Below, one piece after another: positions 3,349 through 50,441 of a stretch of DNA of 64,000 nucleotides. This stretch comes from Apoderus coryli (Eukaryota; Arthropoda; Insecta; Coleoptera; Attelabidae). Made by a program: the position numbers and the translations under genes. The stretch is taken from positions 1,853,981-1,917,980 of the forward strand of contig OU452216.1 of assembly GCA_911728435.2 (NCBI GenBank), in the 5' to 3' direction. A model generated the notes under the pieces. It was not told where the DNA came from. It worked only from the letters and a program-made list of their open reading frames with translations, and made no database searches. Position 1 is the stretch's first letter; each line of letters starts with the position of its first letter.

Positions 3349-3367
3349 GAAATCCCGAAGGGATTTC
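3349..3367 (+). other. Hairpin H1, unit 0 tail
   Basis: Arms GAAATCCC/GGGATTTC, loop GAA. The next H2 starts 86 nt after its end. Confidence 0.85.
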
Positions 3368-3452
3368 TTTTAATATATACTAACGAGTGATCTTCGCGTT
3401 TCTTTCTAAAATGAGGAAAAAAAGCACAAAGTTGTGTGCGAATAAACGCAAA

Positions 3453-3471
3453 GGAACGCCGGAGGCGTTCC
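3453..3471 (+). other. Hairpin H2, unit 1
   Basis: Arms GGAACGCC/GGCGTTCC, loop GGA (allele a). Confidence 0.85.
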
Positions 3472-5746
3472 AACAGTGATTCCTATATGGCAACTTTATT
3501 TTTTGCATCACCCGATAGGCTATATATCAAAGCTGATTCAATGCATTAAAATTATGTATTTTATTCATATATTTACCTGTGCAGAAACGATATTTTAGCG
3601 TGACAAGGAGGTAAATACGATTTTCTACGAGGAAATTCAAGAAAAAAGCATTATAAAGTACTGCTATTACTTTGAAATAAATACCTGTTTTGGTGCTGTG
3701 TTTAGGTACAAAAACAATTTTAAAGTTACGTACAAGCATATTTGGTACGCCACTGTGCCTTTTCCATATCCTATATTTTCAATTATTGCGTTTTTCGTTC
3801 ATTTTTATTAATCTATCAAACCTTAAATGCGACTGGTATATTCCTTAAAATTGACAAATCTAATTTAGTTCAGCTGTCACACATAACGTTCTTTTACATT
3901 TTTCCAAATAAATATACAATGACACTCTTTAAAAACACATGTTAAATATAAAGAACAAAATTTAAAAGACACTGATATACGCAGCATTTGCAATATTAAT
4001 TACAAAATGTGCGAAAAACCACATAAAATCATACCGATGACACCCATTTTTGCCTTCAATATAGAGGCGACACTAACGACCACCACACAGGAAATGAACA
4101 TTATGTTTCATTTGGCTATGATGCCTATCCTTTTCACAAACAAACACATTCAAATTCTTTCATCCATTGCAATTGAAAATAATACATACATACATAACCT
4201 ATAAAATACTGCCATGAACAGTGAAGGCTTATCTAATTTTTTAACAACTGCTTTAATTCCAAATCTAATTATCCCAGAAAGTGATTTTGTAGAATGTGGC
4301 CCAATATGGCAACAATGGCGCACATCGTTTTCGACTCGACTAATTCCGTGACCAGTCACTCCAATTTTGCAAATGGCCACTCATCATAAACTTCCGCAAA
4401 GAACAACAACAATAAACACAAATTATCGAAATGAGTAAACAACAGTAGTAAATATAGCAAAAAACACTTGCACAGTAAGTAGTTTAATACAAACACATAA
4501 TAGGTATTCAATATTTCAGGCAAACATTTGTTGTTAGCTACCTACTAGGTATATTACGATCAAAACAAACAGGTTAATATTTTTAAAATTAAAACATTAT
4601 ACCTACCACATCACAACCGTAAGTAACAAATACAAACAACATAATATTGTTATTCCAAAGTGATAGATACAGAAATATACAAAAACAATGCAAGTAAGGA
4701 AGTACCTACTTTTACCCGAGATCTATCACTGGCAACAAACAATTACAAGTAGAGTTATTTTTTTATTAATGAAGTCTATAAAAAGGCCACAATACAGACA
4801 ACATTTTTTGCATCCAGCTACATAAATATGCTTTTAACAACGTGAGTACTTTGTAAAACTAAGTATCTACTATTTACTGAAACTTATTCTCGATCAGAAA
4901 ATACCAACAATTACAATTTACAGTTTTTATAATCCATTTATCAGGAAGAATTTGAGATACCTAGGTAGGTATGTCGTATATGTTGTACTTATTAATGAAG
5001 TTTATAAAAAGGAAGGTAGGTACATTATTATTATTATTATTTAGATTTGTTTGAAACTAAACTAAAGGTTACTAGGTCAATTTCATCTTATTGATCTCGG
5101 TCAGGGTTGTTTCCAAATAACTAATGACGTACGTACTTAGCTGACTAATTTTATTATAGATTTACAATTTTCGTATTATACCTAACTTTACCTGTTTAAT
5201 TAATTAATTAAATTTAGTATATTATATTAATAAAATAAATGTTGTACTATTTTAAGACAGCTAAAATAAAGGTTACTAGGTCAATTTCATCCGGTCAGGG
5301 TCAGGATAGTTTCCAAATAACTAACGACGTACGGTACTTAGCTGGCTAATTTTATACCAAAGACCTTACTAACACAGTATTATTATTATGTATGTATGTA
5401 TTATTAAGGTCTTTGTTTTATACAAAGGTTCTCCATTCGTCAAGAAAGTAGATATTCATACGTACGTCGTTACTACATTCCTATAATAGATCAGGTGGTG
5501 AAGGGTAGCATAACCAACTACGTACATTAGGACAGTGTTGCCTACGTTATCTGTTATATAAACGGATTTCACAATATCTGTAGGTGCATACTTACGTTGG
5601 CTGCATGTGAATTAAAGCAGTATTATTTGTCTTTGTTTATCTCATTGCGTGACAAATTTTGCTTCACTTTATCACAAATATTCGCAGCTTGATATAAGTG
5701 GACTTATTGTCATCTGTGGAACAATGCTATTATTTAAAATGACGTC

Positions 5747-5765
5747 ATACGTACGACGTACGTAT
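5747..5765. other. 9-bp inverted repeat in tail C
   Basis: ATACGTACG and CGTACGTAT around a single A, preceded by GACGTC. The same structure occurs at 25227-25245 in unit 6. Function unknown. Confidence 0.7.
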
Positions 5766-6641
5766 CTAAGCTAAGACCGAGAGAATTTGATCATATGTTT
5801 TGGATGACGACATATTGTTTATCTTACGATTTATTTACCAAAAAATTAGGGTTTCTTTTTTAATTTACAAATTCCACTACTAAATTAAATTAAAATGCCT
5901 ACATTTAGTTTTAATTTCCTGATACCGAATTTATTCTTACGTTACAAATAACTGGATAAAATACAAGTCTCATTACCTACCTACCTACCTGTTTTTGTCC
6001 AAAAACTAATTACAGATGATAACCTAGATCAAAAACATTCAATGAAACAAAATAGGTACGTAATTTTGTTAAGTTTAAGTCTTAAAGTAAGTATAGCCAT
6101 TATATATATTCATATAAATAGCACAGAATAAATAATATTCTGTGTAAATAGTACTTATCATGTTTTTATACAAAAATTATAAACCGTAAACACAACAAAT
6201 CAATATAGAATTAACTACACTTTTTATTTTATACACCACGTATTATTATTATTAGCGGATGCTGACGACCAAATTTCCATTTCCAAATTGATTTCTGTCT
6301 CTTGCCTGTAGGTCCATATTTTGAATGCTTCAAGTTATTTCGTTTTTTTTTTAAGTTACCGCCTAAGCGAGTACTAACTATTATTGGCCTCTTGCCCTTT
6401 CACAGTAGGATACAGCCAGCACAGTTTATTTTTATCAAATATAGTTACAATGCATACTACTACTGTTTACTTTTAACCTCCAAGCCCCATAATATAACCT
6501 ATTTATTTATGACGTGAAATAGAAGTGTCAACCAAACAAAAATAAGGGACACCAACGTCAGAACAAAATTCTGCCAAATTATGACAAACCAACGAAGCCA
6601 AAATAGATAGACAGATAGTCCTAAAATCAACGTCCGCCGCT

Positions 6642-6659
6642 ATTAACGTTAACGTTAAT
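6642..6659. other. 18-bp perfect palindrome
   Basis: ATTAACGTTAACGTTAAT contains two overlapping GTTAAC sites. It is repeated in unit 6 (near 26116) and in the degenerate unit 11c (near 49099), always in the same context. Confidence 0.75.
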
Positions 6660-6776
6660 TGAACACCAACGATTTTCAAATAGAAAGATGTGGTAGGTTT
6701 ATAAAATGATGATCGGCAGCCATTTTTAGGCTAGCAGATTTAAAATACCAAACTAATATATTTATAGTAGGTATTT

Positions 6777-8915
6777 ACCATTTTTTTTAACACGATAGGT
6801 GACTTTATTTTCTTTAAAAGAGAAATTTTTAGCATAGGTTTTAAATTTATATACGGGGTGAATCAAAAATGTATTTCTCTATTTTTTACCATTTTTTTTA
6901 ACACGATAGGTGACTTTATTTTCTTTACAAGAGAAATTTTTAGCATAGGCTTTAAATTTATATACAGGGTGAATCAAAAATGTATTTCTCTATTTTTTTA
7001 CCATTTTTTTTAACACGATAGGTGACTTTATTTTCTTTAAAAGAGAAATTTTTAGCATAGGTTTTAAATTTATATACGGGGTGAATCAAAAATGTATTTC
7101 TCTATTTTTTTACCATTTTTTTTAACACGATAGGTGACTTTATTTTCTTTAAAAGAGAAATTTTTAGCATAGGTTTTAAATTTATATACGGGGTGAATCA
7201 AAAATGTATTTCTCTATTTTTTTACAATTTTTTTTAACACGATAGGTGACTTTATTTTCTTTAAAAGAGAAATTTTTAGCATAGGTTTTAAATTTATATA
7301 CGGGGTGAATCAAAAATGTATTTCTCTATTTTTTTACCATTTTTTTTAACACGATAGGTGACTTTATTTTCTTTAAAAGAGAAATTTTTAGCATAGGTTT
7401 TAAATTTATATACGGGGTGAATCAAAAATGTATTTCTCTATTTTTTTACCATTTTTTTTAACACGATAGGTGACTTTATTTTCTTTAAAAGAGAAATTTT
7501 TAGCATAGGTTTTAAATTTATATACGGGGTGAATCAAAAATGTATTTCTCTATTTTTTTACCATTTTTTTTAACACGATAGGTGACTTTATTTTCTTTAA
7601 AAGAGAAATTTTTAGCATAGGTTTTAAATTTATATACAGGGTGAATCAAAAATGTATTTCTTTATTTTGTTAAGGTGAAATAGTATTGTTTTGAATAACT
7701 TTTTGATTTCTTTAGATTTCAAATCAAGATTTTTTTAAAAGTTAAACTATAAGCTCAAATTTATATACAGGGTGAATCAAAAATGTATTTCTTTATTTTG
7801 TTAAGGTGAAATAGTATTGTTTTGAATAACTTTTTGATTTCTTTAGATTTCAAATCAAGATTTTTTTAAAAGTTAAACTATAAGCTCAAATTTATATACA
7901 GGGTGAATCAAAAATGTATTTCTTTATTTTGTTAATGTGAAATATTTTGAATAATTTTTTGATTTCTTTAGATTTCAAATCAAGATTTTTTGAAAGTTAA
8001 ACTATAAGCTCAAATTTATATACAGGGTGAATCAAAAATGTATTTCTTTATTTTGTTAAGGTGAAATAGTATTGTTTTGAATAACTTTTTGATTTCTTTA
8101 GATTTCAAATCAAGATTTTTTGAAAGTTAAACTATAAGCTCAAATTTATATACAGGGTGAATCAAAAATGTATTTCTTTATTTTGTTAAGCTGAAATAGT
8201 ATTGTTTTGAATAACTTTTTGATTTCTTTAGATTTCAAATCAAGATTTTTTTAAAAGTTAAACTATAAGCTCAAATTTATATACAGGGTGAATCAAAAAT
8301 GTATTTCTTTATTTTGTTAAGGCGAAATAGTAATACTTGGAATAATTTTTTGATATCTTTAGATTTCAAGTCAAGATTTTTTGAAAGTTAAACTATAAGC
8401 TCAAATTTATATACAGGGTGAATCAAAAATGTATTTCTTTATTTTGTTAAGGTGAAATATTTTGAATAACTTTTTGATTTCTTTAGATTTCAAATCAAGA
8501 TTTTTTGAAAGTTAAACTATAAGCTCAAATTTATATACAGGGTGAATCAAAAATGTATTTCTTTATTTTGTTAAGGTGAAATAGTATTGTTTTGAATAAC
8601 TTTTTGATTTCTTTAGATTTCAAATCAAGATTTTTTTAAAAGTTAAACTATAAGCTCAAATTTATATACAGGGTGAATCAAAAATGTATTTCTTTATTTT
8701 GTTTAGATGAAATAGTAATATTTTGAATAACTTTTTGATTTCTTTAGATTTCAAATCAAGATTTTTTTAAAAGTTAAACTATAAGCTCAAATTTATATAC
8801 AGGGTGAATCAAAAATGTATTTCTTTATTTTGTTAAGGTGAAATAGTAATATTTTGAATAATTTTTTGATTTCTTTGGGTTTCAATTCAAGATTTCTTTG
8901 AAAGTTAAACTATAT
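6777..8915 (+). repeat. Minisatellite array of unit 1, two subfamilies
   Basis: Eight copies of a 112-bp repeat (cores near 6848-7631, with the word CGATAGGTGACTTT) are followed without a gap by about nine copies of the 119-131-bp repeat (cores 7762-8795). Both share the core TATAC(A/G)GGGTGAATC. The first 112-bp copy is one T shorter. Confidence 0.92.
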
Positions 8916-9243
8916 GCTCCTAGAGGTTTTCTACGGGGTAACTCAAAAATGTTTCTATTTATTTTCAATAATAGATAGAAACATTTTCAGATTTTCAGCT
9001 CTGGCAATACTTTTTTTTAATTAATTTTTGAATTATTTTTTTTTTAAATTTTTTTTTTTTAATTTTTTTTTTTTTTTAAATTTTTTTTTTTGAAATTTTT
9101 TTTTTTTAATTTTTTTTTTTAATTTTTTTTTAATAATAGAAACATTTTTTTCCTTGAAATTTTTTTTTTTTTATTTTTTTTTTCATTTTTTTTGCCACCC
9201 TCAATGACTTTTTTCATAGATAAAACTACCACAAACCAACTGG

Positions 9244-9263
9244 GAAATCCCGCAAGGGATTTC
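9244..9263 (+). other. Hairpin H1, unit 1 tail
   Basis: Arms GAAATCCC/GGGATTTC, loop GCAA. H2 of the next unit starts at 9350. Confidence 0.85.
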
Positions 9264-9349
9264 TTGTTAATATATACTAACGAGTGATCTTCGCGTTTCT
9301 TTCTAAAATGAGGAAAAAAAGCACAAAGTTGTGTGCGAATAAACGCAAA

Positions 9350-9368
9350 GGAACGCCGGAGGCGTTCC
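9350..9368 (+). other. Hairpin H2, unit 2
   Basis: Arms GGAACGCC/GGCGTTCC, loop GGA (allele a). Confidence 0.85.
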
Positions 9369-11220
9369 AACAGTGATTCCTATATGGCAACTTTATTTTT
9401 TGCATCACCCGATAGGCTATATATCAAAGCTGATTGAATGCATTAAAATTATGTATTTTATTCATTTATTTACCTGTGCAGAAACGATATTTTAGCGTGA
9501 CAAGGAGGTGAATACGATTTTCTACGAGGAAATTCAAGAAAAAAGCATTATAAAGTACTGCTATTACTTTGAAATAAATACCTATTTTGGTGCTGTGTTT
9601 AGGTACAAAAACAATTTTAAAGCATATTTGGTACGCCACTGTGCCTTTTCCATATCCTATATTTTCAATTATTGCGTTTTTCGTTCATTTTTATTAATCT
9701 ATCAAACCTTAAATGCGACTGGTATATTCCTTAAAATTGACAAATCTAATTTAGTTCAGCTGTCACACATAACGTTCTTTTACATTTTTCCAAATAAATA
9801 TACAATGACACTCTTTAAAAACACATGTTAAATATAAAGAACAAAATTTAAAAGACACTGATATACGCAGCATTTGCAATATTACTTACAAAATGTGCGA
9901 AAAACCACATAAAATCATACCGATGACACCCATTTTTGCCTTCAATATAGAGGCGACACTAACGACCACCACACAGGAAATGAACATTATGTTTCATTTG
10001 GCTATGATGCCTATCCTTTTCACAAACAAACACATTCAAATTCTTTCATCCATTGCAATTGAAAATAATACATACATACATAACCTATAAAATACTGCCA
10101 TGAACAGTGAAGGCTTATCTAATTTTTTAACAACTGCTTTAATTCCAAATCTAATTATCCCAGAGAGTGATTTTGCAGAATGTGGCCCAATATGGCAACA
10201 ATGGCGCACATCGTTTTCGATTCGACTTATTTTGTGATCAGTCACTCCAATTTTGCAAATGGCCACTCATCATAAACTTCCGCAAAGAACAACAACAATA
10301 AACACAAATTATCGAAATGAGTAAACAACAGTAGTAAATATAGCAAAAAACACTTGCACAGTAAGTAATTTAATACAAATACATAATATTCCATATTTCA
10401 GACAAATAGGTATATCATGCCGTCTATACCTAAAATGTAGTACATTCGTTGTTGTTAGCTACCTACTAGGTATATTATGATCAAAACAAACAGGCTAACA
10501 TTCTTAAAATTAAAACATTATACCTACCACATCACAACCGTAAGTAACAAATACAAACAACATATTATTGTTATTCCAAAGTGATAGATACAGAAATATA
10601 CAAAAACAATGCAAGTAAGTAAGTACCTACTTACTTATTCTCTATCTGAAAATACCAACAATTACAATTAAGGTTCGCCATTTATCAGGAAGAATCTGTT
10701 TGAGATACCTTATTATGTCGTTTATATTGTACTTATTAATGAAGTTTATAAAAAGGAAGGTAGGTACATTATTATTATTATTTAGATTTGTTTGAAACTA
10801 AACTAAAGGTTACTAGGTCAATTTCATCTTATTGATCTCGGTCAGGGTTGTTTCCAAATAACTAATGACGTACGTACCTACTTAGCTGACTAATTTTATT
10901 ATAGATTTACAATTTTCGTTTTAAACCTAACTTTATCTGTTTAATTAACTAAATTTAGTATTTTATATTAATAATAGGTACTTATTTTTCTGGTAATTAT
11001 CTATTTCTTATAATCTTGATCATATATACATTAGTAGTTTTTATAACAGGTTCTCCATTCGTCAAGAAAGTAGATATTCATACGTACGTCGCTACTAGAC
11101 TCCTATAATACATCAGGTGTTGAAGGGCAGCAACCAACTACGTACATTAGGACAGTGTTGCCTACGTTATCTGTTATAAAAAGGGCAAAGCAATAAATTT
11201 CAGAGTTTTTTAGATTAGTT

Positions 11221-12601
11221 GATGAAATTTTTTGATTTCTTTAGATTTCAAATTAAGTTTTCTGTGAAAGTTAAACTATAGGGTCAAATATATATACAGG
11301 GTGAATCAAAAATGTATTTCTTTATTTTGTTATGGTCAAAAAAGTTATATTTTGAATAATTTTTTGATTTCTTTAGATTTCAAATTAAGTTTTCTGTGAA
11401 AGTTAAACTATAGGGTCAAATATATATACAGGGTGAATCAAAAATGTATTTCTTTATTTTGTTATGGTCAAAAAAGTTATATTTTGAATAATTTTTTGAT
11501 TTCTTTAGATTTCAAATTAAGTTTTCTGTGAAAGTTAAACTATAAGGTAGAATATATATACAGGGTGAATCAAAAATGTATTTCTTTATTTTGTTATGGT
11601 CAAAAAAGTTATATTTTGAATAATTTTTTGATTTCTTTAGATTTCAAATTAAGTTTTCTGTGAAAGTTAAACTATAGGGTCAAATATATATACAGGGTGA
11701 ATCACAAATGTATTTCTTTATTTTGTTATGGTCAAAAAAGTTATATTCTGAATAATTTTTTGATTTCTTTAGATTTCAAATTAAGTTTTCTGTGAAAGTT
11801 AAACTATAAGGTAGAATATATATACAGGGTGAATCACAAATGTATTTCTTTATTTTGTTATGGTCAAAAAAGTTATATTTTGAATAATTTTTTGATTTCT
11901 TTAGATTTCAAATTCAGTTTTCTGTGAAAGTTAAACTATAGGGTCAAATATATATACAGGGTGAATCAAAAATGTATTTCTTTATTTTGTTATGGTCAAA
12001 AAAGTTATATTTTGAATAATTTTTTGATTTCTTTAGATTTCAAATTAAGTTTTCTGTGAAAGTTAAACTATAGGGTCAAATATATATACAGGGTGAATCA
12101 CAAATGTATTTCTTTATTTTGTTATGGTCAAAAAAGTTATATTTTGAATAATTTTTTGATTTCTTTAGATTTCAAATTAAGTTTTCTGTGAAAGTTAAAC
12201 TATAGGGTCAAATATATATACAGGGTGAATCAAAAATGTATTTCTTTATTTTGTTATGGTCAAAAAAGTTATATTTTGAATAATTTTTTGATTTCTTTAG
12301 ATTTCAAATTAAGTTTTCTGTGAAAGTTAAACTATAGGATCAAATATATATACAGGGTGAATCACAAATGTATTTCTTTATTTTGTTATGGTCAAAAAAG
12401 TAATATTTTGAATAATATTTTGATTTCTTTAGATTTGAAATTAAGTTTTCTGTGAAAGTTAAACTATAAGCTCAAATTTATATACGGGGTGAACCAAAAA
12501 TGTATTTCTTTATTTTGTTATGGTCAAAAAAGTAATATTTTGAATAATTTTTTGATTTCTTTGGGTTTCAATTGAAGATTTCTTTGAAAGTTAAACTATA
12601 T
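11221..12601 (+). repeat. Minisatellite array of unit 2 (132-bp subfamily)
   Basis: About ten copies (cores from 11291 to 12478) marked by TTATGGTCAAAAAAG and TTTTCTGTGAAAG, which are absent from the 131-bp subfamily. Copies alternate between AATCAAAAATG and AATCACAAATG, so the homogenisation is recent but incomplete. Confidence 0.92.
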
Positions 12602-12945
12602 GCTCCTAGAGGTTATCTACGAGGTGACTCAAAAATGTTTCTATTTATTTTCAATAATAGATAGAAACATTTTCAGATTTTCAGCTCTGGCAATACTTTT
12701 TTTTAATTATTTTTTTTGTAATTTTTTTTTTTGAAAAATTTTTTTTTTCGAAATTTTTTTTTTTAAATTTTTTTTTTTAAATTTTTTTTTTTGAAAATTT
12801 TTTTTTTTTTAATTTTTTTTTGACTTTTTTTTTTTTAATAGAAACATTTTTTTCCTTGAAATTTTTTTTTTTTATTTTTTTTTTTCATTTTTTTTATAAC
12901 CCTCAATGACTTTTTTTATAGATAAAACTACCACAAACCAACTGG

Positions 12946-12965
12946 GAAATCCCGCAAGGGATTTC
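12946..12965 (+). other. Hairpin H1, unit 2 tail
   Basis: Arms GAAATCCC/GGGATTTC, loop GCAA. Confidence 0.85.
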
Positions 12966-13044
12966 TTGTTAATATATACTAACGAGCGTACAGTCCGTTT
13001 CTTTCTAAAATGGGGAAAAAAAGGGGCCACTTAAAGCCACTAAG

Positions 13045-13075
13045 GCTGCAGTTTCGCCGAAGGCGAAACTGCAGC
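13045..13075 (+). other. Hairpin H2, unit 3 (14-bp arms)
   Basis: The left arm GCTGCAGTTTCGCC is perfectly complementary to the right arm; loop GAA (allele b). A smaller hairpin, AGCC-ACTAA-GGCT, lies just upstream and overlaps its base. Confidence 0.87.
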
Positions 13076-15154
13076 GCTGCCTATTATAGAAAATTTCCTT
13101 TTTGCACACGGGAAAGGTGTACTTTACAAAGGTGATTCAGTGCATTAAAATTATGTATTTTATTCATTTATTTACCTGTGCAGAAACGATATTTTAGCGT
13201 GACAAGGAGGTGAATACGATTTTCTACGAGGAAATTCAAGAAAAAAGCATTATAAAGTACTGCTATTACTTTGAAATAAATACCTGTTTTGGTGCTGTGT
13301 TTAGGTACAAAAACAATTTTAAAGTTACGTACAAGCATATTTGGTACGCCACTGTGCCTTTTCCATATCCTATATTTTCAATTATTGCGTTTTTCGTTCA
13401 TTTTTATTAATCTATCAAACCTTAAATGCGACTGGTATATTCCTTAAAATTGACAAATCTAATTTAGTTCAGCTGTCACACATAACGTTCTTTTACATTT
13501 TTCCAAATAAATATACAATGACACTCTTTAAAAACACATGTTAAATATAAAGAACAAAATTTAAAAGACACTGATATACGCAGCATTTGCAATATTACTT
13601 ACAAAATGTGCGAAAAACCACATAAAATCATACCGATGACACCCATTTTTGCCTTCAATATAGAGGCGACACTAACGACCACCACACAGGAAATGAACAT
13701 TATGTTTCATTTGGCTATGATGCCTATCCTTTTCACAAACAAACACATTCAAATTTTTTCATCCATTGCAATTGAAAATAATACATACATACATAACCTA
13801 TAAAATACTGCCATGAACAGTGAAGGCTTATCTAATTTTTTAACAACTGCTTTAATTCCAAATCTAATTATCCCAGAGAGTGATTTTGCAGAATGTGGCC
13901 CAATATGGCAACAATGGCGCACATCGTTTTCGATTCGACTTATTTCGTGATCAGTCACTCCAATTTTGCAAATGGCCACTCATCATAAACTTCCGCAAAG
14001 AACAACAACAATAAACACAAATTATCGAAATGAGTAAACAACAGTAGTAAATATAGCAAAAAACACTTGCACAGTAAGTAATTTAATACAAATACATAAT
14101 ATTCCATATTTCAGACAAATAGGTATATCATGCCGTCTATACCTAAAATGTAGTACATTCGTTGTTGTTAGCTACCTACTAGGTATATTATGATCAAAAC
14201 AAACAGGCTAACATTCTTAAAATTAAAACATTATACCTACCACATCACAACCGTAAGTAACAAATACAAACAACATATTATTGTTATTCCAAAGTGATAG
14301 ATACAGAAATATACAAAAACAATGCAAGTAAGTAAGTAGGTACCTACTTACTTATTCTCTATCTGAAAATACCAACAATTACAATTAAGGTTCGCCATTT
14401 ATCAGGAAGAATTTGTTTGAAATACCTTATTATGTCGTTTATATTGTACTTATTAATGAAGTTTATAAAAAGGAAGGTAGGTACATTATTATTATTATTA
14501 TTTAGATTTGTTTGAAACTAAACTAAAGGTTACTAGGTCAATTTCATCTTATTGATCTCGGTCAGGGTTGTTTCCAAATAACTAATGACGTACGTACTTA
14601 GCTGACTAATTTTATTATAGATTTACAATTTTCGTTTTAAACCTAACTTTATCTGTTTAATTAACTAAATTTAGTATTTTATATTAATAATAGGTACTTA
14701 TTTTTCTGGTAATTATCTATTTCTTATAATCTTGATCATATATACATTAGTAGTTTTTATAACAGGTTCTCCATTCGTCAAGAAAGTAGATATTCATACG
14801 TACGTCGCTACTAGACTCCTATAATACATCAGGTGTTGAACGGCAGCAACCAACTACGTACATTAGGACAGTGTTGCCTACGTTATCTGTTATAAAAAGG
14901 GCAAAGCAATAAATTTCAGAGTTTTTTAGATTAGTTGATGAAATTATTGCATAGGGTGATGTACGGGGTAACTCAAAAATGTTTCTATTTATTTTCAATA
15001 TTTTTAGGTATGGTAAAACGTAATAGAAAAATTTTCCTGGCTATGCGCTAAGTATTTATCAGATTTTAACGACATTAATTAATAAGCACCATGTACAGGG
15101 TGATACAAAACCAACATTAATTATCCCACATTTAAGAAATTTTAAATGTATAGA

Positions 15155-16601: not shown

Positions 16602-16946
16602 GCTCCTAGAGGTTATCTACGAGGTGACTCAAAAATGTTTCTATTTATTTTCAATAATAGATAGAAACATTTTCAGATTTTCAGCTCTGGCAATACTTTT
16701 TTTTAATTATTTTTTTTGTAATTTTTTTTTTTGAAAAATTTTTTTTTTCGAAATTTTTTTTTTTAAATTTTTTTTTTTTAATTTTTTTTTTTGAAAATTT
16801 TTTTTTTTTTTTAATTTTTTTTTGACTTTTTTTTTTTTAATAGAAACATTTTTTCCTTGAAATTTTTTTTTTTTATTTTTTTTTTTCATTTTTTTTATAA
16901 CCCTCAATGACTTTTTTTATAGATAAAACTACCACACAACGACTGG

Positions 16947-17050: not shown

Positions 17051-17069
17051 GCCACGCCGAAGGCGTGGC
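17051..17069 (+). other. Hairpin H2, unit 4
   Basis: Arms GCCACGCC/GGCGTGGC, loop GAA (allele c). An upstream GTGGC at about 17032 could pair with the left arm instead, giving an alternative fold. Confidence 0.85.
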
Positions 17070-19180
17070 CCCCGCTTTATTGATATAGAAACTTTATTTT
17101 TTGCACAATAGAATAGGCTATATATCAAAGCGGATTGGGTGCATGAAAATTATGTATTTTAATCATTTATATACCTCTGCACAAACGGAATTAAAGTGTG
17201 AGAAGGAGGTGAATAACTTTTTCTACGAGAAAATTCAAGAAAACAACAACAAAATACTGCAAAAAATGCTACTACTAAATCAATAAATTTACCTTTTTGC
17301 AACATCCCCACATACAATAAAAGCCTTTTGATTTATTCTAGGCACTGTTCTAAACAGGGGAGTGCACTTTTACGGTATGGTACGGCCCTTTATTACATTT
17401 TTAATTGTAAACTAAAAATGTTGAAAAATCTTCCGAGACTTCGTACATTCATCAATCTGACATAAGTTATTGTTATGTATTGTTGTAACCTGACGTTTTT
17501 TGGTACCGATTCAATTCTGTCATTACTGTTAATTTGTCACAAAAACTTTCAATGAAACTAAATATGGATATGTGATTATAATAAGAAGCCATATACACCT
17601 ATAATAAGTATCCATATAAATAGAAGGAATAAAAAACTACCTATAGTAAAATTAAACTGCCACTCATAAACTTTCGCAGAGAATAACAACAATGAACACA
17701 AATTATGAGTAAACATTGCACAGTAAGTATTGTACATAAATTCTTTATTTTAGGCTACTAACTAGGTACCTACTACCATCGAAAATATACTACGACTACG
17801 ATTTTTATATCTACGGTGCTACTACTACACATTATTATGATCAAAACAACAACATCTAATTACAGTGAAATCGTACCTTTTGCAAACACAGACATAGGTA
17901 GAATACCTAATAAATGTAACTACCTACTTCAAATACGTAATGAAGGTTATATTAAACAACAAAGTGATAGAAACAGAAATATACCTATGCAAGTAAGTAC
18001 CGATTCAGTTCTGTCATTACTGTTTTTGTTAATTCCAAGTAGTAGGTATACTAAAAACTTTCAATGAAACTAAATATAGATATGTGATTTTGTAGCGATA
18101 TTAAATAAGTATTAATAGGTATCCATTATAAATAGAAGTAAGGAATAAAAAACTACCTATAGTAAAATTAAACTGCTACTTATTTATCTTATACCTAGAA
18201 AATCACGTACCTATAACTACACTTACTTGCTGAATGTTTTTATTTCAAAATACACAATAATTAAAATTTCTTAAACTACAAATACAACACAGTTTTGTGT
18301 TAGGTGCATAGATAATTTAACTATATAAATAAACTAAATTTGGACTACGCGCGACATCATCACACACATTTTAAAAACATTGGTATATTAATAGGTATAA
18401 CCTACACACACTGAAAATATTATAATAAACCGAACGAAATTTCATAATTTTTAAACACCAAATCATGATTTTGTTTATGTCGCCTGAGCAGAGCTTCGTT
18501 GGTCACTTTATAGTCCACATAATTTTAACAAACGGCTGTATGTCCACATTTTGAACGCCTATTTTGTTGATAGTGTCAGTTTGGGTTAGGTATTAACAAT
18601 TTCTCACTAAAATTACTTCAAATATACAATGACATATTCTAAATTTACTACAAATACTTTTAATAACCATTTTATAACAATACAATTTAACATGTTGATA
18701 GGAATTGAAAACTGTTAGGCTATTAATGTACACAAATAAAACCAAATTATGACGTGACCTAGAAGTGTCAACCAAACAAAAATAAGTGACACTAACGTCA
18801 GAAAAAAATTCTGCCAAATTATGACGTGAAACTAGAGGTGCAACTATATTGGAATTTGTCGATTTATTTTGAAAGCCATTTTCATGACTATATTCTTAGA
18901 AAAGCATATAGGACATGCAATTTCGTATATTTTTAATAACAATCCTATAAAAAGACTAACGTAAATTGCATTGAACAAGTATTAATCTTTAAATCTCATT
19001 TCAATCAATGACCTTTATTTAATATCTTATGCTTATGCAACCTCCAACACATCATTATGGTATTTACGGTTGCATAACCTCTTCTATGGAATAAGACACT
19101 TTTCGATGCTCTTCAATTTTGTCTAAAGTAGATTGCAATCGAAAAACTTTTAAATCTTTAGAAATTTTTAACGTACACTT

Positions 19181-21010: not shown

Positions 21011-21047
21011 GGAGCCACTAAGGCTCCAGTTTCGCCGAAGGCGAAAC
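21011..21047 (+). other. Double hairpin incl. H2, unit 5
   Basis: First stem-loop GGAGCC-ACTAA-GGCTCC (21011-21027), then H2 with arms GTTTCGCC/GGCGAAAC and loop GAA (21029-21047). One base separates them. Beyond 8 bp the H2 stem is broken here, whereas in units 3 and 7 it extends to 14 bp. Confidence 0.83.
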
Positions 21048-24037: not shown

Positions 24038-24056
24038 GGAACGCCGGAGGCGTTCC
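24038..24056 (+). other. Hairpin H2, unit 6
   Basis: Arms GGAACGCC/GGCGTTCC, loop GGA (allele a). Confidence 0.85.
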
Positions 24057-27998: not shown

Positions 27999-28029
27999 GC
28001 TGCAGTTTCGCCGAAGGCGAAACTGCAGC
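27999..28029 (+). other. Hairpin H2, unit 7 (14-bp arms)
   Basis: Same allele as unit 3: left arm GCTGCAGTTTCGCC, loop GAA. Confidence 0.87.
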
Positions 28030-31997: not shown

Positions 31998-32016
31998 GCC
32001 ACGCCGAAGGCGTGGC
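31998..32016 (+). other. Hairpin H2, unit 8
   Basis: Arms GCCACGCC/GGCGTGGC, loop GAA (allele c). Confidence 0.85.
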
Positions 32017-35767: not shown

Positions 35768-35786
35768 GCCACGCCGAAGGCGTGGC
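35768..35786 (+). other. Hairpin H2, unit 9
   Basis: Arms GCCACGCC/GGCGTGGC, loop GAA (allele c). Confidence 0.85.
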
Positions 35787-40389: not shown

Positions 40390-40716
40390 GCTCCTAGAGG
40401 TTTTCTACGGGGTAACTCAAAAATGTTTCTATTTATTTTCAATAATAGATAGAAACATTTTCAGATTTTCAGCTCTGGCAATACTTTTTTTTAATTAATT
40501 TTTGAATTATTTTTTTTTTTAATTTTTTTTTTTTAATTTTTTTTTTTGAAATTTTTTTTTTTGAAATTTTTTTTTTTTAAATTTTTTTTTTAATTTTTTT
40601 TTAATAATAGAAACATTTTTTTCCTTGAAATTTTTTTTTTTTTTGATTTTTTTTTTCATTTTTTTTGCCACCCTCAATGACTTTTTTTATAGATAAAACT
40701 ACCACACAACGACTGG

Positions 40717-40735
40717 GAAATCCCGCAGGGATTTC
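40717..40735 (+). other. Hairpin H1, unit 9 tail
   Basis: Arms GAAATCCC/GGGATTTC, loop GCA. Confidence 0.85.
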
Positions 40736-40821
40736 TTGTTAAATATTAATAAAACCCGTACAGTCCGTCTCTGTCTAAAATTGGGAAAAAAAGACCAAAA
40801 GTGTGGCGGATTTGGCATCTA

Positions 40822-40840
40822 GCCACGCCGAAGGCGTGGC
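40822..40840 (+). other. Hairpin H2, unit 10
   Basis: Arms GCCACGCC/GGCGTGGC, loop GAA (allele c). Confidence 0.85.
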
Positions 40841-42966
40841 CCCCGCTTTATTGATATAGAAACTTTATTTTTTGCACAATAGAATAGGCTATATATTAAA
40901 GCGGATTGGATGCATTAAAATTATGTATTTTAATCATTTATATACCTCTGCACAAACGGAATTAAAGTGTGAGAAGGAGGTGAATAACTTTTTCTACGAG
41001 AAAATTCAAGAAAACAACAAGCACAAAACTGCAAAAAATGCTACTACTAAATCAATAAATTTACCTTTTTGTAACATCCACACATACAACAAAAGCATTT
41101 TGATTTATACTAGGCACTGTTCTAAACACGGCAGTGCACTTTTACGGTATGGTACGGCCCTTTATTACATTTTTAATTGTAAACTAAAAATGTTGAAAAA
41201 TCTTCCGAGACTTCGTACATTCATCAATCTGACATAAGTTATTGTTATGTATTGTTGTAACCTGACGTTTTTTGGTACCGATTCAGTTCTGTCATTACTG
41301 TTTTTCAGTTCTGTCATTACTGTTTTTGTTTACAAAAACTTTCAATGAAACTAAATATAGATATGTGATTATAATAAGAAGCCATATACACCTATAATAA
41401 GTATCCATATAAATAGAAGGAATAAAAAACTACCTATAGTAAAATTAAACTGCCACTCATAAACTTTCGCAGAGAATAACAACAATGAACACAAATTATG
41501 AGTAAACATTGCACAGTAAGTATTGTACATAAATTCTATATTTTAGGCTACTAACTAGGTACCTACTACCATCGAAAATATACTACGACCACGATTTTTA
41601 TATCTACGGTGCTACTACTACACATTATTATGATCAAAACAACAACATCTAATTACAGTGAAATCGTACCTTTTGCAAACACAGACATAGGTAGAATACC
41701 TAATAAATGTAACTACCTACTTCAAATACGTAATGAAGGTTATATTAAACAACAAAGTGATAGAAACAGAAATATACCTATGCAAGTAAGTACCGATTCA
41801 GTTCTGTCATTACTGTTTTTGTTAATTCCAAGTAGTAGGTATACTAAAAACTTTCAATGAAACTAAATATAGATATGTGATTTTGTAGCGATATTAAATA
41901 AGTATCCATTATAAATAGAAGTAAGGAATAAAAAAACTACCTATAGTAAAATTAAACTGCTACTTATTTATCTTATACCTAGAAAATCACGTACCTATAA
42001 CTACACTTACTTGCTGAATGTTTTTATTTCAAAATACACAATAATTAAAATTTCTTAAACTACAAATACAACACAGTTTTGTGTTAGGTGCATAGATAAT
42101 TTAACTATATAAATAAACTAAATTTGGACTACGCGCGACATCATCACACACATTTTAAAAACATTGGTATATTAATAGGTATAACCTACACACACTGAAA
42201 ATATTATAATAAACCGAACGAAATTTCATAATTTTTAAACACCAAATCATGATTTTGTTTATGTCGCCTGAGCAGAGCTTCGTTGGTCACTTTATAGTCC
42301 ACATAATTTTAACAAACGGCTGTATGTCCACATTTTGAACGCCTATTTTGTTGATAGTGTCAGTTTGGGTTAGGTATTAACAATTTCTCACTAAAATTAC
42401 TTCAAATATACAATGGCATATTCTAAATTTACTACAAATACTTTTAATAACCATTTTATAACAATACAATTTAACAACATGTTGATAGGAATTGAAAACT
42501 GTTAGGCAATTAATGTACACAAATAAAACCAAATTATGACGTGACCTAGAAGTGTCAACCAAACAAAAATAAGTGACACTAACGTCAGAAAAAAATTCTG
42601 CCAAATTATGACGTGAAACTAGAGGTGCAACTATATTGGAATTTGTCGATTTATTTTGAAAGCCATTTTCATGACTATATTCTTAGAAAAGCATATAGGA
42701 CATGCAATTTCGTATATTTTTAATAACAATCCTATAAAAAGACTAACGTAAATTGCATTGAACAAGTATTAATCTTTAAATCTCATTTCAATCAATGACC
42801 TTTATTTAATATCTTATGCTTATGCAACCTCCAACACATCATTATGGTATTTACGGTTGCATAACCTCTTCTATGGAATAAGACACTTTTCGATGCTCTT
42901 CAATTTTGTCTAAAGTAGATTGCAATCGAAAAACTTTTAAATCTTTAGAAATTTTTAACGTACACT

Positions 42967-44368
42967 TTAAATTTATATACAGGGTGAATCAAAAATGTAT
43001 TTCTTTATTTTGTTAAGGTGAAATAGTATTGTTTTGAATAACTTTTTGATTTCTTTAGATTTCAAATCAAGATTTTTTTTAAAGTTAAACTATAAGCTCA
43101 AATTTATATATAGGGTGAATCAAAAATGTATTTCTTTATTTTGTTAAGGTGAAATATTTTGAATAATTGTTTGATTTCTTTAGATTTCAAATCAAGATTT
43201 TTTTAAAAGTTAAACTATAAGCTCAAATTTATATACAGGGTGAATCAAAAATGTATTTCTTTATTTTGTTAAGGTGAAATAGTATTGTTTTGAATAACTT
43301 TTTGATTTCTTTAGATTTCAAATCAAGATTTTTTTAAAAGTTAAACTATAAGCTCAAATTTATATACAGGGTGAATCAAAAATGTATTTCTTTATTTTGT
43401 TAAGGTGAAATAGTATTGTTTTGAATAACTTTTTGATTTCTTTAGATTTCAAATCAAGATTTTTTGAAAGTTAAACTATAAGCTCAAATTTATATACAGG
43501 GTGAATCAAAAATGTATTTCTTTATTTTGTTAAGGTGAAATATTTTGAATAATTTTTTGATTTCTTTAGATTTCAAATCAAGATTTTTTGAAAGTTAAAC
43601 TATAAGCTCAAATTTATATACAGGGTGAATCAAAAATGTATTTCTTTATTTTGTTTAGGTGAAATATTTTGAATAATTTTTTGATTTCTTTAGATTTCAA
43701 ATCAAGATTTTTTGAAAGTTAAACTATAAGCTCAAATTTATATACAGGGTGAATCAAAAATGTATTTCTTTATTTTGTTAAGGTGAAATATTTTGAATAA
43801 TTTTTTGATTTCTTTAGATTTCAAATCAAGATTTTTTGAAAGTTAAACTATAAGCTCAAATTTATATACAGGGTGAATCAAAAATGTATTTCTTTATTTT
43901 TTTAAGGTGAAAAAGTATTGTTTTGAATAACTTTTTGATTTCTTTAGATTTCAAATCAAGATTTTTTGAAAGTTAAACTATAAGCTCAAATTTATATACA
44001 GGGTGAATCAAAAATGTATTTCTTTATTTTGTTTAGGTGAAATAGTAATATTTTGAATAACTTTTTGATTTCTTTAGATTTCAAATCAAGATTTTTTGAA
44101 AGTTAAACTATAAGCTCAAATTTATATACAGGGTGAATCAAAAATGTATTTCTTTATTTTGTTAAGGTGAAATATTTTGAATAATTTTTTGATTTCTTTA
44201 GATTTCAAATCAAGATTTTTTGAAAGTTAAACTATAAGCTCAAATTTATATACAGGGTGAATCAAAAATGTCTTTCTTTATTTTGTTAAGGTGAAATAGT
44301 AATATTTTGAATAATTTTTTGATTTCTTTGGGTTTCAATTCAAGATTTCTTTGAAAGTTAAACTATAT
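42967..44368 (+). repeat. Minisatellite array of unit 10
   Basis: About eleven copies of the 119-131-bp subfamily (cores from 42974). The last copy has ATGTCTTTC in place of ATGTATTTC. Confidence 0.92.
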
Positions 44369-44738
44369 GCTCCAAGAGGTTTTCTACGGGGTAACTCAAA
44401 AATGTTTCTATTTATTTTCAATAATAGATAGAAACATTTTCAGATTTTCAGCTCTGGCAATACTTTTTTGTAATTATTTTTTTGTAATTTTTTTTTTTTA
44501 TTTTTTTTTTTTGAAAATTTTTTTTTTCGAAATTTTTTTTTTTAAATTTTTTTTTCAAAATTTTTTTTTTCAAAAATTTTTTTTTTTTTTATTTTTTTTT
44601 TTTAAATATTTTTTTCTTTATTTTTTTTATTGACACATTTCTTTTTCCTTAAAATTTTTTTTCTTGATTTTTTTTTTCCTTTTTTTTTATAATCCTCAAT
44701 GACTTTTTTTATAGATAAAACTACCACACAACGACTGG

Positions 44739-44757
44739 GAAATCCCGAAGGGATTTC
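44739..44757 (+). other. Hairpin H1, unit 10 tail
   Basis: Arms GAAATCCC/GGGATTTC, loop GAA. Confidence 0.85.
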
Positions 44758-44760
44758 TTG

Positions 44761-46031
44761 TTAATATTAATAAAACCCGTACAGTCCGTCTCTGTCTAAA
44801 ATTGGGAAAAAAAGACCAAAAGTGTGGCGGATTTGGCATCTAGCCACGCCGAAGGCGTGGCCCCCGCTTTATTGATATAGAAACTTTCTTTTTTGCACAA
44901 TAGAATAGGCTATATATTAAAGCGGATTGGGTGCATTAAAATTATGTATTTTAATCATTTATATACCTCTGCACAAACAGAATTAAAGTGTGAGAAGGAG
45001 GTGAATAACTTTTTCTACGAGAAAATTCAAGAAAACAACAACATAAAACTGCCAAAAATGCTACTACTAAAGCAATAAATTTACCTTTGTGCAACATCCA
45101 CACATACAATAAAAGCCTTTTGATTTATACTAGGCACTGTTCTAAACACGGCAGTGCACTTTTACGGTATGGTACGGCCCTTTATTACATTTTTAATTGT
45201 AAACTAAAAATGTTGAAAAATCTTCCGAGACTTCGTACATTCATCAATCTGACATAAGTTATTGTTATGTATTGTTGTAACCTGACGTCTTCTGGTACCG
45301 ATTCAGTTCTGTCATTACTGTTTTTGAGTTCTGTCATTACTGTTTTTGTTACAAAAACTTTCAATGAAACTAAATATAGATATGTGATTATAATAAGAAG
45401 CCATATACACCTATAATAAGTATCCATATAAATAGAAGGAATAAAAAACTACCTATAGTAAAATTAAACTGCCACTCATAAACTTTCGCAGAGAATAACA
45501 ACAATGAACACAAATTATGAGTAAACATTGCACAGTAAGTATTGTACATAAATTCTTTATTTTAGGCTACTAACTAGGTACCTACTACCATCGAAAATAT
45601 ACTACGACTACGATTTTTATATCTACGGTGCTACTACTACACAATGTAATACATTCGTTGTTGCTATTACCTACCTATATTATGATCAAAACAACAACAT
45701 CTAATTACAGTGAAATCGTACCTTTTGCAAACACAGACATAGGTAGAATACCTAATAAATGTAACTACCTACTTCAAATACGTAATGAAGGTTATATTAA
45801 ACAACAAAGTGATAGAAACAGAAATATACCTATGCAAGTAAGTACCGATTCAGTTCTGTCATTACTGTTTTTGTTAATTCCAAGTAGTAGGTATACTAAA
45901 AACTTTCAATGAAACTAAATATAGATATGTGATTTTGTAGCGATATTAAATAAGTATTAATAGGTATCCATTATAAATAGAAGTAAGGAATAAAAAACTG
46001 CCTATAGTAAAATTAAACTGCTACTTATTTA
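44761..46031 (+). mobile_element. Unit 11a (head c, body B, truncated)
   Basis: Head c (H2 44843-44861) and the first part of body B. It stops at ...GCTACTTATTTAT, where all other B units continue CTTATACC. No minisatellite, T-rich tract or H1 follows; the head of another unit starts immediately. The unit is therefore 3'-truncated at a junction with at most 1 nt of overlap. Confidence 0.78.
44843..44861 (+). other. Hairpin H2, unit 11a
   Basis: Arms GCCACGCC/GGCGTGGC, loop GAA (allele c). Confidence 0.85.
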
Positions 46032-48081
46032 TTAATATTAATAAAACCCGTACAGTCCGTCTCTGTCTAAAATTGGAAAAAAAACGCATGATTTGCGTGC
46101 AAGTTGGCATCTCGCCACGCCGGAGGCGTGGCCCCAGCTGTATTTATATCGAAACTTTACTTTTTTAAGACTGGTATAGGCTATATATGAAAGCGGATTG
46201 GATGCATTAAAATTATGTATTTTAATCATTTATATACCTCTGCACAAACGGAATTAAAGTGTGAGAAGGAGGTGAATAACTTTTTCTACGAGAAAATTCA
46301 AGAAAACAACAAGCACAAAACTGCAAAAAATGCTACTACTAAATCAATAAATTTACCTTTTTGTAACATCCACACATACAACAAAAGCATTTTGATTTAT
46401 ACTAGGCACTGTTCTAAACACGGCAGTGCACTTTTACGGTATGGTACGGCCCTTTATTACATTTTTAATTGTAAACTAAAAATGTTGAAAAATCTTCCGA
46501 GACTTCGTACATTCATCAATCTGACATAAGTTATTGTTATGTATTGTTGTAACCTGACGTTTTTTGGTACCGATTCAGTTCTGTCATTACTGTTTTTCAG
46601 TTCTGTCATTACTGTTTTTGTTTACAAAAACTTTCAATGAAACTAAATATAGATATGTGATTATAATAAGAAGCCATATACACCTATAATAAGTATCCAT
46701 ATAAATAGAAGGAATAAAAAACTACCTATAGTAAAATTAAACTGCCACTCATAAACTTTCGCAGAGAATAACAACAATGAACACAAATTATGAGTAAACA
46801 TTGCACAGTAAGTATTGTACATAAATTCTATATTTTAGGCTACTAACTAGGTACCTACTACCATCGAAAATATACTACGACCACGATTTTTATATCTACG
46901 GTGCTACTACTACACATTATTATGATCAAAACAACAACATCTAATTACAGTGAAATCGTACCTTTTGCAAACACAGACATAGGTAGAATACCTAATAAAT
47001 GTAACTACCTACTTCAAATACGTAATGAAGGTTATATTAAACAACAAAGTGATAGAAACAGAAATATACCTATGCAAGTAAGTACCGATTCAGTTCTGTC
47101 ATTACTGTTTTTGTTAATTCCAAGTAGTAGGTATACTAAAAACTTTCAATGAAACTAAATATAGATATGTGATTTTGTAGCGATATTAAATAAGTATCCA
47201 TTATAAATAGAAGTAAGGAATAAAAAAACTACCTATAGTAAAATTAAACTGCTACTTATTTATCTTATACCTAGAAAATCACGTACCTATAACTACACTT
47301 ACTTGCTGAATGTTTTTATTTCAAAATACACAATAATTAAAATTTCTTAAACTACAAATACAACACAGTTTTGTGTTAGGTGCATAGATAATTTAACTAT
47401 ATAAATAAACTAAATTTGGACTACGCGCGACATCATCACACACATTTTAAAAACATTGGTATATTAATAGGTATAACCTACACACACTGAAAATATTATA
47501 ATAAACCGAACGAAATTTCATAATTTTTAAACACCAAATCATGATTTTGTTTATGTCGCCTGAGCAGAGCTTCGTTGGTCACTTTATAGTCCACATAATT
47601 TTAACAAACGGCTGTATGTCCACATTTTGAACGCCTATTTTGTTGATAGTGTCAGTTTGGGTTAGGTATTAACAATTTCTCACTAAAATTACTTCAAATA
47701 TACAATGGCATATTCTAAATTTACTACAAATACTTTTAATAACCATTTTATAACAATACAATTTAACAACATGTTGATAGGAATTGAAAACTGTTAGGCA
47801 ATTAATGTACACAAATAAAACCAAATTATGACGTGACCTAGAAATGTCAACCAAACAAAAATAAGTGACACTAACGTCAGAAAAAAATTCTGCCAAATTA
47901 TGACGTGAAACTAGAGGTGCAACTATATTGGAATTTGTCGATTTATTTTGAAAGCCATTTTCATGACTATATTCTTAGAAAAGCATATAGGACATGCAAT
48001 TTCGTATATTTTTAATAACAATCCTATAAAAAGACTAACGTAAATTGCATTGAACAAGTATTAATCTTTAAATCTCATTTC
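46032..48081 (+). mobile_element. Unit 11b (head d, body B), lacks 3' end
   Basis: Starts TTAATATTAATAAAACC without any preceding H1, so it fixes the 5' end of the repeat. H2 lies at 46114-46132 and is preceded by a small hairpin ACGCA-TGATT-TGCGT (46084-46098). Body B is almost base-for-base that of unit 10 up to about 48080. The sequence then leaves the B consensus just after AAATCTCATTTCA, where other units continue ATCAATGACC. Confidence 0.75.
46084..46132 (+). other. Double hairpin incl. H2, unit 11b
   Basis: ACGCA-TGATT-TGCGT, then H2 with arms GCCACGCC/GGCGTGGC and loop GGA (46114-46132, allele d). The stem matches allele c, but the loop and flanks differ. Confidence 0.82.
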
Positions 48082-49447
48082 ACAACAACGAGGAGTAGCA
48101 ATTTTCACTCACCTATTTTAAACGCACGTTCCTTTTACAGAACAAAAAAGTGCATGAAGTTAGAGTCGAACAATATGTGCCTGAGTTGTAACCTATGGAT
48201 AGGATGACTTCTTTTGGTACCGATTCAGTTCTTTCATTACTGTTTTTGTTACAAAAATTCCAAATAGTAGGTATATTAAAAACTTTCAATGAAACTAAAT
48301 ATAGATATGTGATTTTGTACCGAAATTAAACAAGTAGCCATATACCTATAATAGGTATCCATTATAAATTGAAGTAAGGAATAAAAAACTGCTACTTATT
48401 TATCTTATACCTAGAAAATCACGTACCTATAACTACGCTTACTTGCTGAATGTTTTTATTTCAAAATACACAATAATTAAAATTCCTTAAACTACAAATA
48501 CAAACAATAAACTTTAGAGTTTTGTGTTAGGTGCATAGGTAATTTAACTATATTAATAAACTAAATTTGGGCTACGGGCGACTTTATCACACACATTTTA
48601 AAAACATTGGTATATTAATAGGTATAACCTACACACACTGAAAATATTATAATAAACCGAACGAAATTTCATAATTTCTAAACACCAAATCATGATTTAG
48701 TTTATGTCGCCTGAGCAGAGCTTCGTTGTTGATCACTTTATAGTCGACAAAATTTTAAACAAACGGCTGTATGTCCACATTTTGAACGCCTATTTTGTTG
48801 ATAGTGTCAGTTTGGGTTAGGTATTAACAATTTCTCACTAAAATTTACTACAAATACTTTTAATAACCATTTTATAACAATACAATTTAACAACAATTTG
48901 ATCTTAAACATGAAAATAATGCCGAAAACTGTTAGGCTGTCAATGTACACAAATAAAACCAAATTATGACGTGAACTAGAAGTGTCAACCAAACAAAAAT
49001 AAGTGACACTAACGTCAGAAAAAAATTCTGCCAAATTATGACAAACCAACGAAGCCAAAATAGATAGACAGATAGTCCTAAAATTAACGTCCGCCGCTAT
49101 TAACGTTAACGTTAATTTAACACCAACGATTTTCAAATAGACAGATGTGGTAGGTTTATAAAATGATGATAATCATATTATAGGCAGCCATTTTTAGGCT
49201 AGCAGATTTAAAATACCTAACTAATATATTTATAGTAGGTATTTAGTATAAAATTTTATAAGGTTATTGAATTTGACAAGTGGATTTATTATTTAAATTA
49301 GGTATGTATCAGATTATAACAAAATTAATTAATAAGCGCATGTACAGGGTGATGCAAAAAAAAAAACATTAATTAGCCAACATTTTACAAATTTTCCAGA
49401 TTGTAATCAAATAAATTTTAAATGTTTAGAAATTTTTAGCATACACT

Positions 49448-49965
49448 TAAATTTATATACGGGGTGAGTCAAAAATGTATTTCATCACTTTGTTAAGGAC
49501 AAAAAAGTAATATTTTGAATAATTTTTATATTTCTTTAGATTTCAAATCAAGATTTTTTTGAAAGCTAAACTATAGCCTCCTAGAGGTTATCTACGGGGT
49601 CACTCAAAAATGTTTATGAATGTAATTTATTATTTAAGACTTTTAGAGAACTTTATCAGCGATAGGTGACTTTTTATTTTCTTTGAAAGAGAAACTTTTA
49701 GCATAGGCTTTAAATTTATATACGGGGTGAGTCAAAAATGTATTTCATTATTTTGGACAAAAAAGTAATATTTTAAAGAATTTTTTGATTTCTTTAGATT
49801 TCAATTCAAGTTTTCTGTGAAAGTTAAACTATAAGCTCAAATTTATATACAGGGTGAATCAAAAATGTATTTCTTTATTTTGTTAAGGTCAAATAGTAAT
49901 ATTTTGAATAATTTTTTGATATCTTTAGATTTCAATTCAAGATTTCTTTGAAAGTTAAACTACAT
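49448..49965 (+). repeat. Degenerate minisatellite copies of unit 11c
   Basis: Three diverged copies (cores near 49454, 49717, 49844), two with GGGTGAGTC instead of GGGTGAATC. They resemble an ancestral mixture of all three subfamilies: the second carries the CGATAGGTGAC word and the third TTTTCTGTGAAAG. Confidence 0.85.
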
Positions 49966-50317
49966 GCTCCTAGAGGTTATCTACGGGGTAACTCAAAAAT
50001 GTTTCTATTTATTTTCAATAATAGATAGAAACATTTTCAGATTTTCAGCTCTGGCAATACTTTTTTTTAATTAATTTTTGAATTATTTTTTTTGAAAATT
50101 TTTTTTTCTTATTTTTTTTTTAAATTTTTTTTGAAAATTTTTTTTTTGAACATTTTTTTTTATTATTTTTTTTTTTTAATTTTTTTTTTTTTAAATTTTT
50201 TTTTTAATAATAGAAACATTTTTTTCCTTGAAATTTTTTTTCTTGATTTTTTTTTTCCTTTTTTTTTATAACCCTCAATGACTTTTTTCATAGACAAAAC
50301 TACCACACAACGACTGG

Positions 50318-50336
50318 GAAATCCCAAAGGGATTTC
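50318..50336 (+). other. Hairpin H1, unit 11c tail
   Basis: Arms GAAATCCC/GGGATTTC, loop AAA. It is the only H1 whose loop does not start with G. Confidence 0.82.
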
Positions 50337-50422
50337 TTGTTTAATATTAATAACGGGTGATGTTCGCGTTTCTTTCTAAAATTGGAAAAAAAACGCATGA
50401 TTTGCGTGCAAGTTGGCATCTC

Positions 50423-50441
50423 GCCACGCCGGAGGCGTGGC
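50423..50441 (+). other. Hairpin H2, unit 12
   Basis: Arms GCCACGCC/GGCGTGGC, loop GGA (allele d). The upstream ACGCA-TGATT-TGCGT hairpin is also present (near 50393). Confidence 0.83.

Follow-up and report, generated by a model that had tools for sequence, protein, structure and literature searches.

A Helitron-like rolling-circle transposon family, amplified as head-to-tail arrays, is found in a 64,000-nt stretch of the Apoderus coryli genome (contig OU452216.1, positions 1,853,981 to 1,917,980, forward strand; hereafter the window), and most heads of its units carry a hairpin, termed H2, with a freely varying stem and a nearly fixed loop. We propose, at somewhat less than an even chance, that H2 is a 5'-subterminal hairpin of the transposon that is read by its shape and loop and is kept by selection. 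Each unit starts with TTAAT... and runs through a head of ~345 bp, a body, 130-bp tandem repeats and a T-rich tract to a second hairpin (H1), which directly adjoins the 3' end, ...CTTG. A complete unit in this order lies at 9267–12968 on the plus strand, as do all features given below.

The initial annotation had placed a hairpin at each of 13 unit heads, and all 13 were recovered there as perfect stems, ~80–106 nt from the element's 5' end. Three stem alleles occur in the window. The first, GGAACGCC, is found three times with loop GGA: in head 1 (3453–3471, where it pairs with GGCGTTCC), head 2 (9350–9368) and head 6 (24038–24056). The second, GTTTCGCC, is also found three times, with loop GAA: in head 5 (21029–21047) and in heads 3 (13045–13075) and 7 (27999–28029), where the stem reaches 14 bp (GCTGCAGTTTCGCC), an extension that had been noted previously and is indeed seen. 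The third, GCCACGCC, accounts for the other seven, with loop GAA in heads 4 (17051–17069), 8 (31998–32016), 9 (35768–35786), 10 (40822–40840) and 11 (44843–44861), and loop GGA in heads 12 (46114–46132) and 13 (50423–50441). Head 12 adjoins a body and not an H1 end, while the unit of head 13 runs toward a transposase exon. In total, the loop is GAA in 8 and GGA in 5 of the 13. The motif NNCAG stands just 3' of H2 in most alleles (A, B, D, H and I).

The same arrangement recurs across the genome. Heads were collected as H1 ends with at least 130 nt following, from the window and from fetched loci (L-numbers; the window lies on contig C24, and C1, C5 and C7 are other contigs of the same genome). 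Among 114 such ends, 102 lead into heads and 12 rows into other DNA, two of those copies appearing twice. A perfect stem of at least 7 bp, at a nearly constant distance from the 5' end, is present in 80 of the 102 heads; shuffles of the region gave such a stem in 18 of 4000 cases. Loci L009–L028 were chosen around matches to one A-type head, so that this sample favours the A allele. The C1 sample was chosen solely by the 3' tail, and the stem is present in 22 of its 34 heads. The 80 perfect hairpins comprise GGAACGCC (44), GCCACGCC (17), GTTTCGCC (15), GTTCGGCC (2) and GCTGCACC (2); heads outside the window thus add two perfect 8-bp stems, giving five perfect stem alleles in all. Flanks of the A type also enclose another allele, GCACGCC(GTA)GGCGTGC, which differs by one two-sided and one one-sided change. 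The stem of this allele recurs in L079 with one mismatch.

Loops are far less variable than stems. The 80 perfect hairpins have GGA (48), GAA (29), GTCA (2) or TTC (1), so that a G..A loop lies on the drawn strand in 79. A genome-wide search for A-type hairpins with any triloop returned 316 copies, and the first 100 listed have GGA (98), GAA (1) and AGA (1), a G..A loop in 99. The earlier claim that only GNA loops occur therefore holds in the window, where all 13 are GAA or GGA, and fails elsewhere, where GTCA, AGA and the flipped forms TTC and TTCC are seen. The pattern C(GNA)G or C(GNNA)G describes nearly every H2 loop and the majority of H1 loops; such motifs are unusually stable in DNA. 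The DNA parameters of ViennaRNA assign an identical energy to every triloop and so do not discriminate among them; the tetraloops GTCA and GCAA reach the lowest energy value.

Paired change in the H2 stem is stronger than in shuffled or slid controls. Covariation was scored in 30 chosen heads against 500 column shuffles and slid controls, a design that does not account for phylogeny. The H2 helix is paired in 95.2% of 228 cells, compared with 74.8% in shuffles and at most 42.5% in slid copies. Both-sided change is seen in 6 of 8 pairs, a level reached by 3 of 500 shuffles, and the covariation score of 0.498 (versus 0.132) is reached by none; overall, four of five measures are reached by no more than 3 of 500 shuffles. 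Unconstrained RNAalifold predicts just one conserved helix in the 5' region, the eight pairs of H2. A longer helix between the CTTCGC/AGTCCG segment and the region before H2 was considered and rejected, as these segments reassort with H2 alleles; more generally, 5' head segments reassort among alleles. The initial annotation had taken the paired stem changes as a mark of selection on structure. The covariation itself stands above shuffles and slid controls, but it is no proof of selection, because template switching can itself create matching arms.

The assignment to Helitron-like elements follows from an empty site, an exon resembling the transposase of Helraiser, the reconstructed bat Helitron, and a match to the Helitron Rep domain. 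Where arrays border other DNA, the break falls immediately 3' of CTTG, or immediately 5' of TTAAT or a closely similar sequence. One C1 array is inserted in a body whose uninserted copies sit in the window: the left flank reads ...TTTGGAA|TTACATATAATAACGAG, the right flank ...GATTTCTTG|TAACAATATT and the uninserted paralogue ...TTTGGAATAACAATATT. No base is gained or lost where the two flanks meet, between A and T, and there is no target site duplication; the comparison covers the flanks alone, which are ~17 kb apart and enclose at least four heads. Taking the element to begin with TT (a one-base ambiguity remains), the host base on the 5' side is A at 7 of 9 junctions; on the 3' side it is T at 10 of 10. 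Direct repeats around the full-length solo copies L073 and L075 were not found above chance, and a direct-repeat search in the flanks of L074 gave just AT-rich matches of 10–11 nt. Most heads begin with TT, type G heads (L027, L033, L035 and L041) begin with TC, and the 3' terminus is CTTG. The family thus combines the traits of the Helitron superfamily: a Rep match, full-length insertions without duplication and a hairpin near the 3' end. Since the element is a Helitron-like rolling-circle transposon, a single-stranded DNA phase, as previously suspected from the loops, is to be expected.

On the gene side, the start of a Helitron transposase exon lies at 62908–64000 (364 aa, open to the window end) and resembles the Helraiser transposase (E 6.7e-20). 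Pfam gave no match for this exon part; a match to Helitron_like_N, the Rep domain, starts at 64114, 114 bp beyond the window. The genome holds 133 Helitron_like_N matches, not all of the window family, and long open Rep frames are present among its sequences. No H1 tail was found from 52.5 kb to the exon, and none is listed from head 13 to 52.5 kb; the simplest reading is therefore that head 13 and its H2 form the 5' end of a copy that codes for the transposase. H2 and the Rep match are 13.7 kb apart in the window, 13.8 kb on C5 and 12.7 kb on C1, with intervening ends not excluded for the latter two. In L018 (C5), the DNA after the H2 head is 74–82% like the gene side. H2 stands upstream of an apparent spliced transposase gene (splice site by eye).

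If the preferred reading is right, the drawn strand would be displaced as single-stranded DNA during transposition, with H1 folding at its 3' end as a stop signal and H2 folding ~80 nt inside its 5' end. In a circle, or at the junction of two units, the cleavage site CTTG|TT would then lie between the two hairpins. H2 would be recognised by its shape and its C(GNA)G or C(GNNA)G loop, not by its stem sequence, and may assist either the transposase or synthesis of the second strand. New matching arms could arise by template switching at the hairpin, and selection would retain those that fold. A free stem with a near-fixed loop is the same pattern as that of the Helraiser 3' hairpin, here on the 5' side: in the Helraiser study, the 5' end proved indispensable and the 3' hairpin served as a stop signal, a stem swap kept ~90% of activity and a loop change acted like deletion of the hairpin (PMC4778049).

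Several observations weigh against this proposal. Helraiser cleavage depends on determinants in the last 40 bp at either end (PMC4778049), and H2 is further in. No perfect 7-bp stem is present in 22 of the 102 heads: type F has an imperfect hairpin (8 rows), type G has none (4), type J has 5 bp (2) and the other 8 lack the perfect stem through a mismatch, a break or a deletion. Types F and G thus multiply with no perfect stem. One further head, in L088, has cleanly lost the hairpin. The stem alleles represent few clades and hence few independent events, and further pair types do not exceed shuffles (12 versus 12.1; 336 of 500 reach this). The loop is flipped in L048 (TTC) and in L086 (TTCC, with one mismatch in the stem). 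Finally, the link of both ends to the gene is drawn from one end and from no end being seen between.

In a rival explanation, H2 is a functionless palindrome kept perfect by replication template switching. This has a serious claim, at a chance well short of even. Such switching has been reported to make arms alike, to invert spacers and to give rise to hairpins (PMC8604942, PMC8794818). Arms do appear to have been rewritten here: among 15 B-type copies, the outer arms are GCTGCA/TGCAGC in 5, GCTCCA/TGGAGC in 3 and not fully paired in 7. Together with the loop flips, this shows that template switching helps make arms match. The inverted H1 of L066 points the same way, as does the multiplication of types F and G. 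However, free switching predicts both loop orientations, and all but one of the perfect hairpins, albeit from few clades, keep G..A on the same strand. Likewise, the distance of H2 from the 5' end is nearly constant across unrelated stems, and deletion of the hairpin is seen in isolated, scattered heads, with L059/L060 as the one pair. That the G..A loop keeps almost always to one strand argues for selection in addition to template switching.

A second possibility, which we consider unlikely, is that H2 acts in RNA, or as a palindromic protein-binding site in the promoter or 5' untranslated region of the transposase gene. Its place upstream of the gene, its GC-rich inverted half-sites and the ability of GAA and GGA loops to fold in RNA would all suit such a role. 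However, H2 is kept in units of several kb without a 150-aa open frame, and its outer stem bases change freely as pairs, unlike those of a sequence-specific site. The loop GTCA falls outside the GNRA loops of RNA, and a TATA-like sequence downstream is not kept across all alleles. Rfam gave no family match at its gathering score, and seven matches in the region 3290–3700 fall far below their cut-offs; hammerhead, HDV-like and other known ribozymes were sought by eye and with Rfam, and nothing was found.

That the units are target-primed retroelements whose hairpins act in RNA is very improbable: 5'-truncated copies with flanking direct repeats would fit it, but an array has an empty site without duplication, two full-length solo copies lack repeats above chance, Helitron transposase matches are present, and 5'-truncated Helitrons with duplications of 7–19 bp, sometimes 44–443 bp, are on record (PMC3627910). 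A variant with H1 as the 3' RNA tail of such an element was dropped after the empty site and the transposase matches. The truncated copies are L029 (C1:30325150-30330500), a 3' fragment of less than 70 bp between perfect 76-bp direct repeats, and a copy in L023 (7411–7930) between direct repeats of ~36 bp. Set against the repeat-free full-length copies, these look like one-ended Helitron transposition in an animal.

To our knowledge, how the 5' end of a Helitron is recognised is poorly known. A more general proposal, possible and rather doubtful at present, is that H2 serves at the Helitron 5' end as a cis signal of structure alone, with a free stem and, on the displaced strand, a fixed G..A loop and C-G closing pair. 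It would bracket the circle junction together with H1, and its free stem would be renewable by template switching. Since searches rely on sequence or on 3' hairpins alone, signals of this kind may have gone unnoticed in Helitrons that insert at A|T. The question matters since the 5' end is the essential one in Helraiser (PMC4778049). Five perfect stem alleles at one place, 1538 tails and open Rep frames offer natural variants for tests of shape versus sequence. With arm rewriting and loop flips visible at one locus, selection and template switching become separable as sources of covariation.

The bodies are of several unrelated types; in the window, at least three different ones have the two ends in common (1–410, 3560–6790 and 17260–19160). 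The window is 73% A+T, and no open frame of 150 aa starting with ATG, GTG or TTG is closed within it. An example of the internal 130-bp tandem repeat array lies at 7626–8919, and copy number varies between units. The first H1 (3349–3367) reads GAAATCCC(GAA)GGGATTTC and is followed by TTTTAAT, where the usual sequence is TTGTTAAT; further copies are at 9244, 12946, 16947, 20924, 23933, 27900, 31894, 35662, 40717, 44739 and 50318. The tail motif occurs 1538 times in the genome with up to two mismatches, and its reversed control not at all. Among 115 tails read, 104 have the exact H1 stem with loop GAA (66), GCAA (21), AAA (9) or GCA (8). A covariation check of these 115 tails found a constant stem sequence, variable loops and a few one-sided changes. 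In L066, H1 is replaced by a perfect 12-bp palindrome with the inverted loop TTGC, resembling a fold-back product at the 3' hairpin.

Other features were noted along the way. A tRNA-Ala-like stretch (by eye) lies ~100–170 nt before the 3' end in the related subfamilies L085, L086 and L087, and the window family seemingly keeps just a remnant of it (CAGCTCTGGCAATAC); ARAGORN found no tRNA in L023. A tRNA-derived short interspersed element sharing the tail was rejected, because, in the copies read, longer related elements contain the tRNA-like stretch. At 54829–54872, a perfect 20-bp palindrome (4-nt loop) adjoins a 142-aa frame (55003–55431) that resembles, by eye, the integrase end of a long terminal repeat (LTR) retrotransposon. 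In L032 (C1:19900460-19905800), a unit begins at the end of an apparent LTR retrotransposon with frames of 463 and 402 aa (by eye). Tail positions indicate a segmental tandem duplication, repeating every 38,108 bp, in the array at C5:19965748-20043824. Listed copies cluster in few regions, near 20 Mb of the 42–46 Mb contigs C5 and C7 and, on certain other contigs, no more than a few Mb from one end. The mid-contig clusters might be old fusion points or heterochromatin blocks.

Among published Helitrons, the family shares with Helitron1 (Helraiser, PMC4778049) A|T insertion, lack of duplication, a 3' hairpin and similarity of the N-terminal transposase, and a CTTG 3' end is also known from Helraiser and maize. 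In contrast, Helitron1 ends are 5'-TC and 3'-CTRR, a combination absent from the window family with its mostly TT start and CTTG end. Helitron1 also has its hairpin 10–12 nt upstream of the 3' end and none on the 5' side, whereas here H1 touches CTTG and H2 is present. Helentron, DINE-1 and HINE elements (PMC4067079, PMC7492417) are similar in their 3' palindrome, central tandem repeats, T at the flanks, variable bodies and satellite-like spread. Membership in that group was rejected, as no subterminal inverted repeats of 11–15 bp were found among exact matches and the insertion reads A|T, not TT. The consulted parts of the Helitron literature on terminal hairpins and covariation gave no example of an A|T-inserting Helitron whose 5' hairpin is both subterminal and covarying.

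In its hairpins, the family resembles Helitron2 (Bao and Jurka 2013, PMC3627910). The initial annotation had ranked H2 as the best candidate for an undescribed functional element, but elements of this kind have already been described: Helitron2 has hairpins at both ends and compensatory changes, seen between the related Helitron-1N1_CQu and Helitron-1N2_CQu (PMC3627910). FoHeli1/2 have 5' hairpins with C(GAA)G loops (PMC5148889). In Chlamydomonas, Helitron2 shows no duplication at exact 5' ends, while its 5'-truncated copies have the duplications mentioned above (PMC3627910), and direct repeats likewise flank 5'-truncated copies of the window family. Two differences stand out. The 5' hairpin of Helitron2 is terminal with an asymmetric inverted repeat, whereas H2 lies ~80 nt inside, and the insertion site of Helitron2 is T-rich, whereas that of the window family is A|T. 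An asymmetric terminal inverted repeat of 8–15 bp was not found in a search of four heads against one tail for exact matches, where the longest was 8 nt (shuffle range 6–12); the H2 arms vary while the tail is constant. H1 and H2 together give this A|T-inserting family a hairpin at both ends, as in Helitron2, with H2 being the subterminal one.

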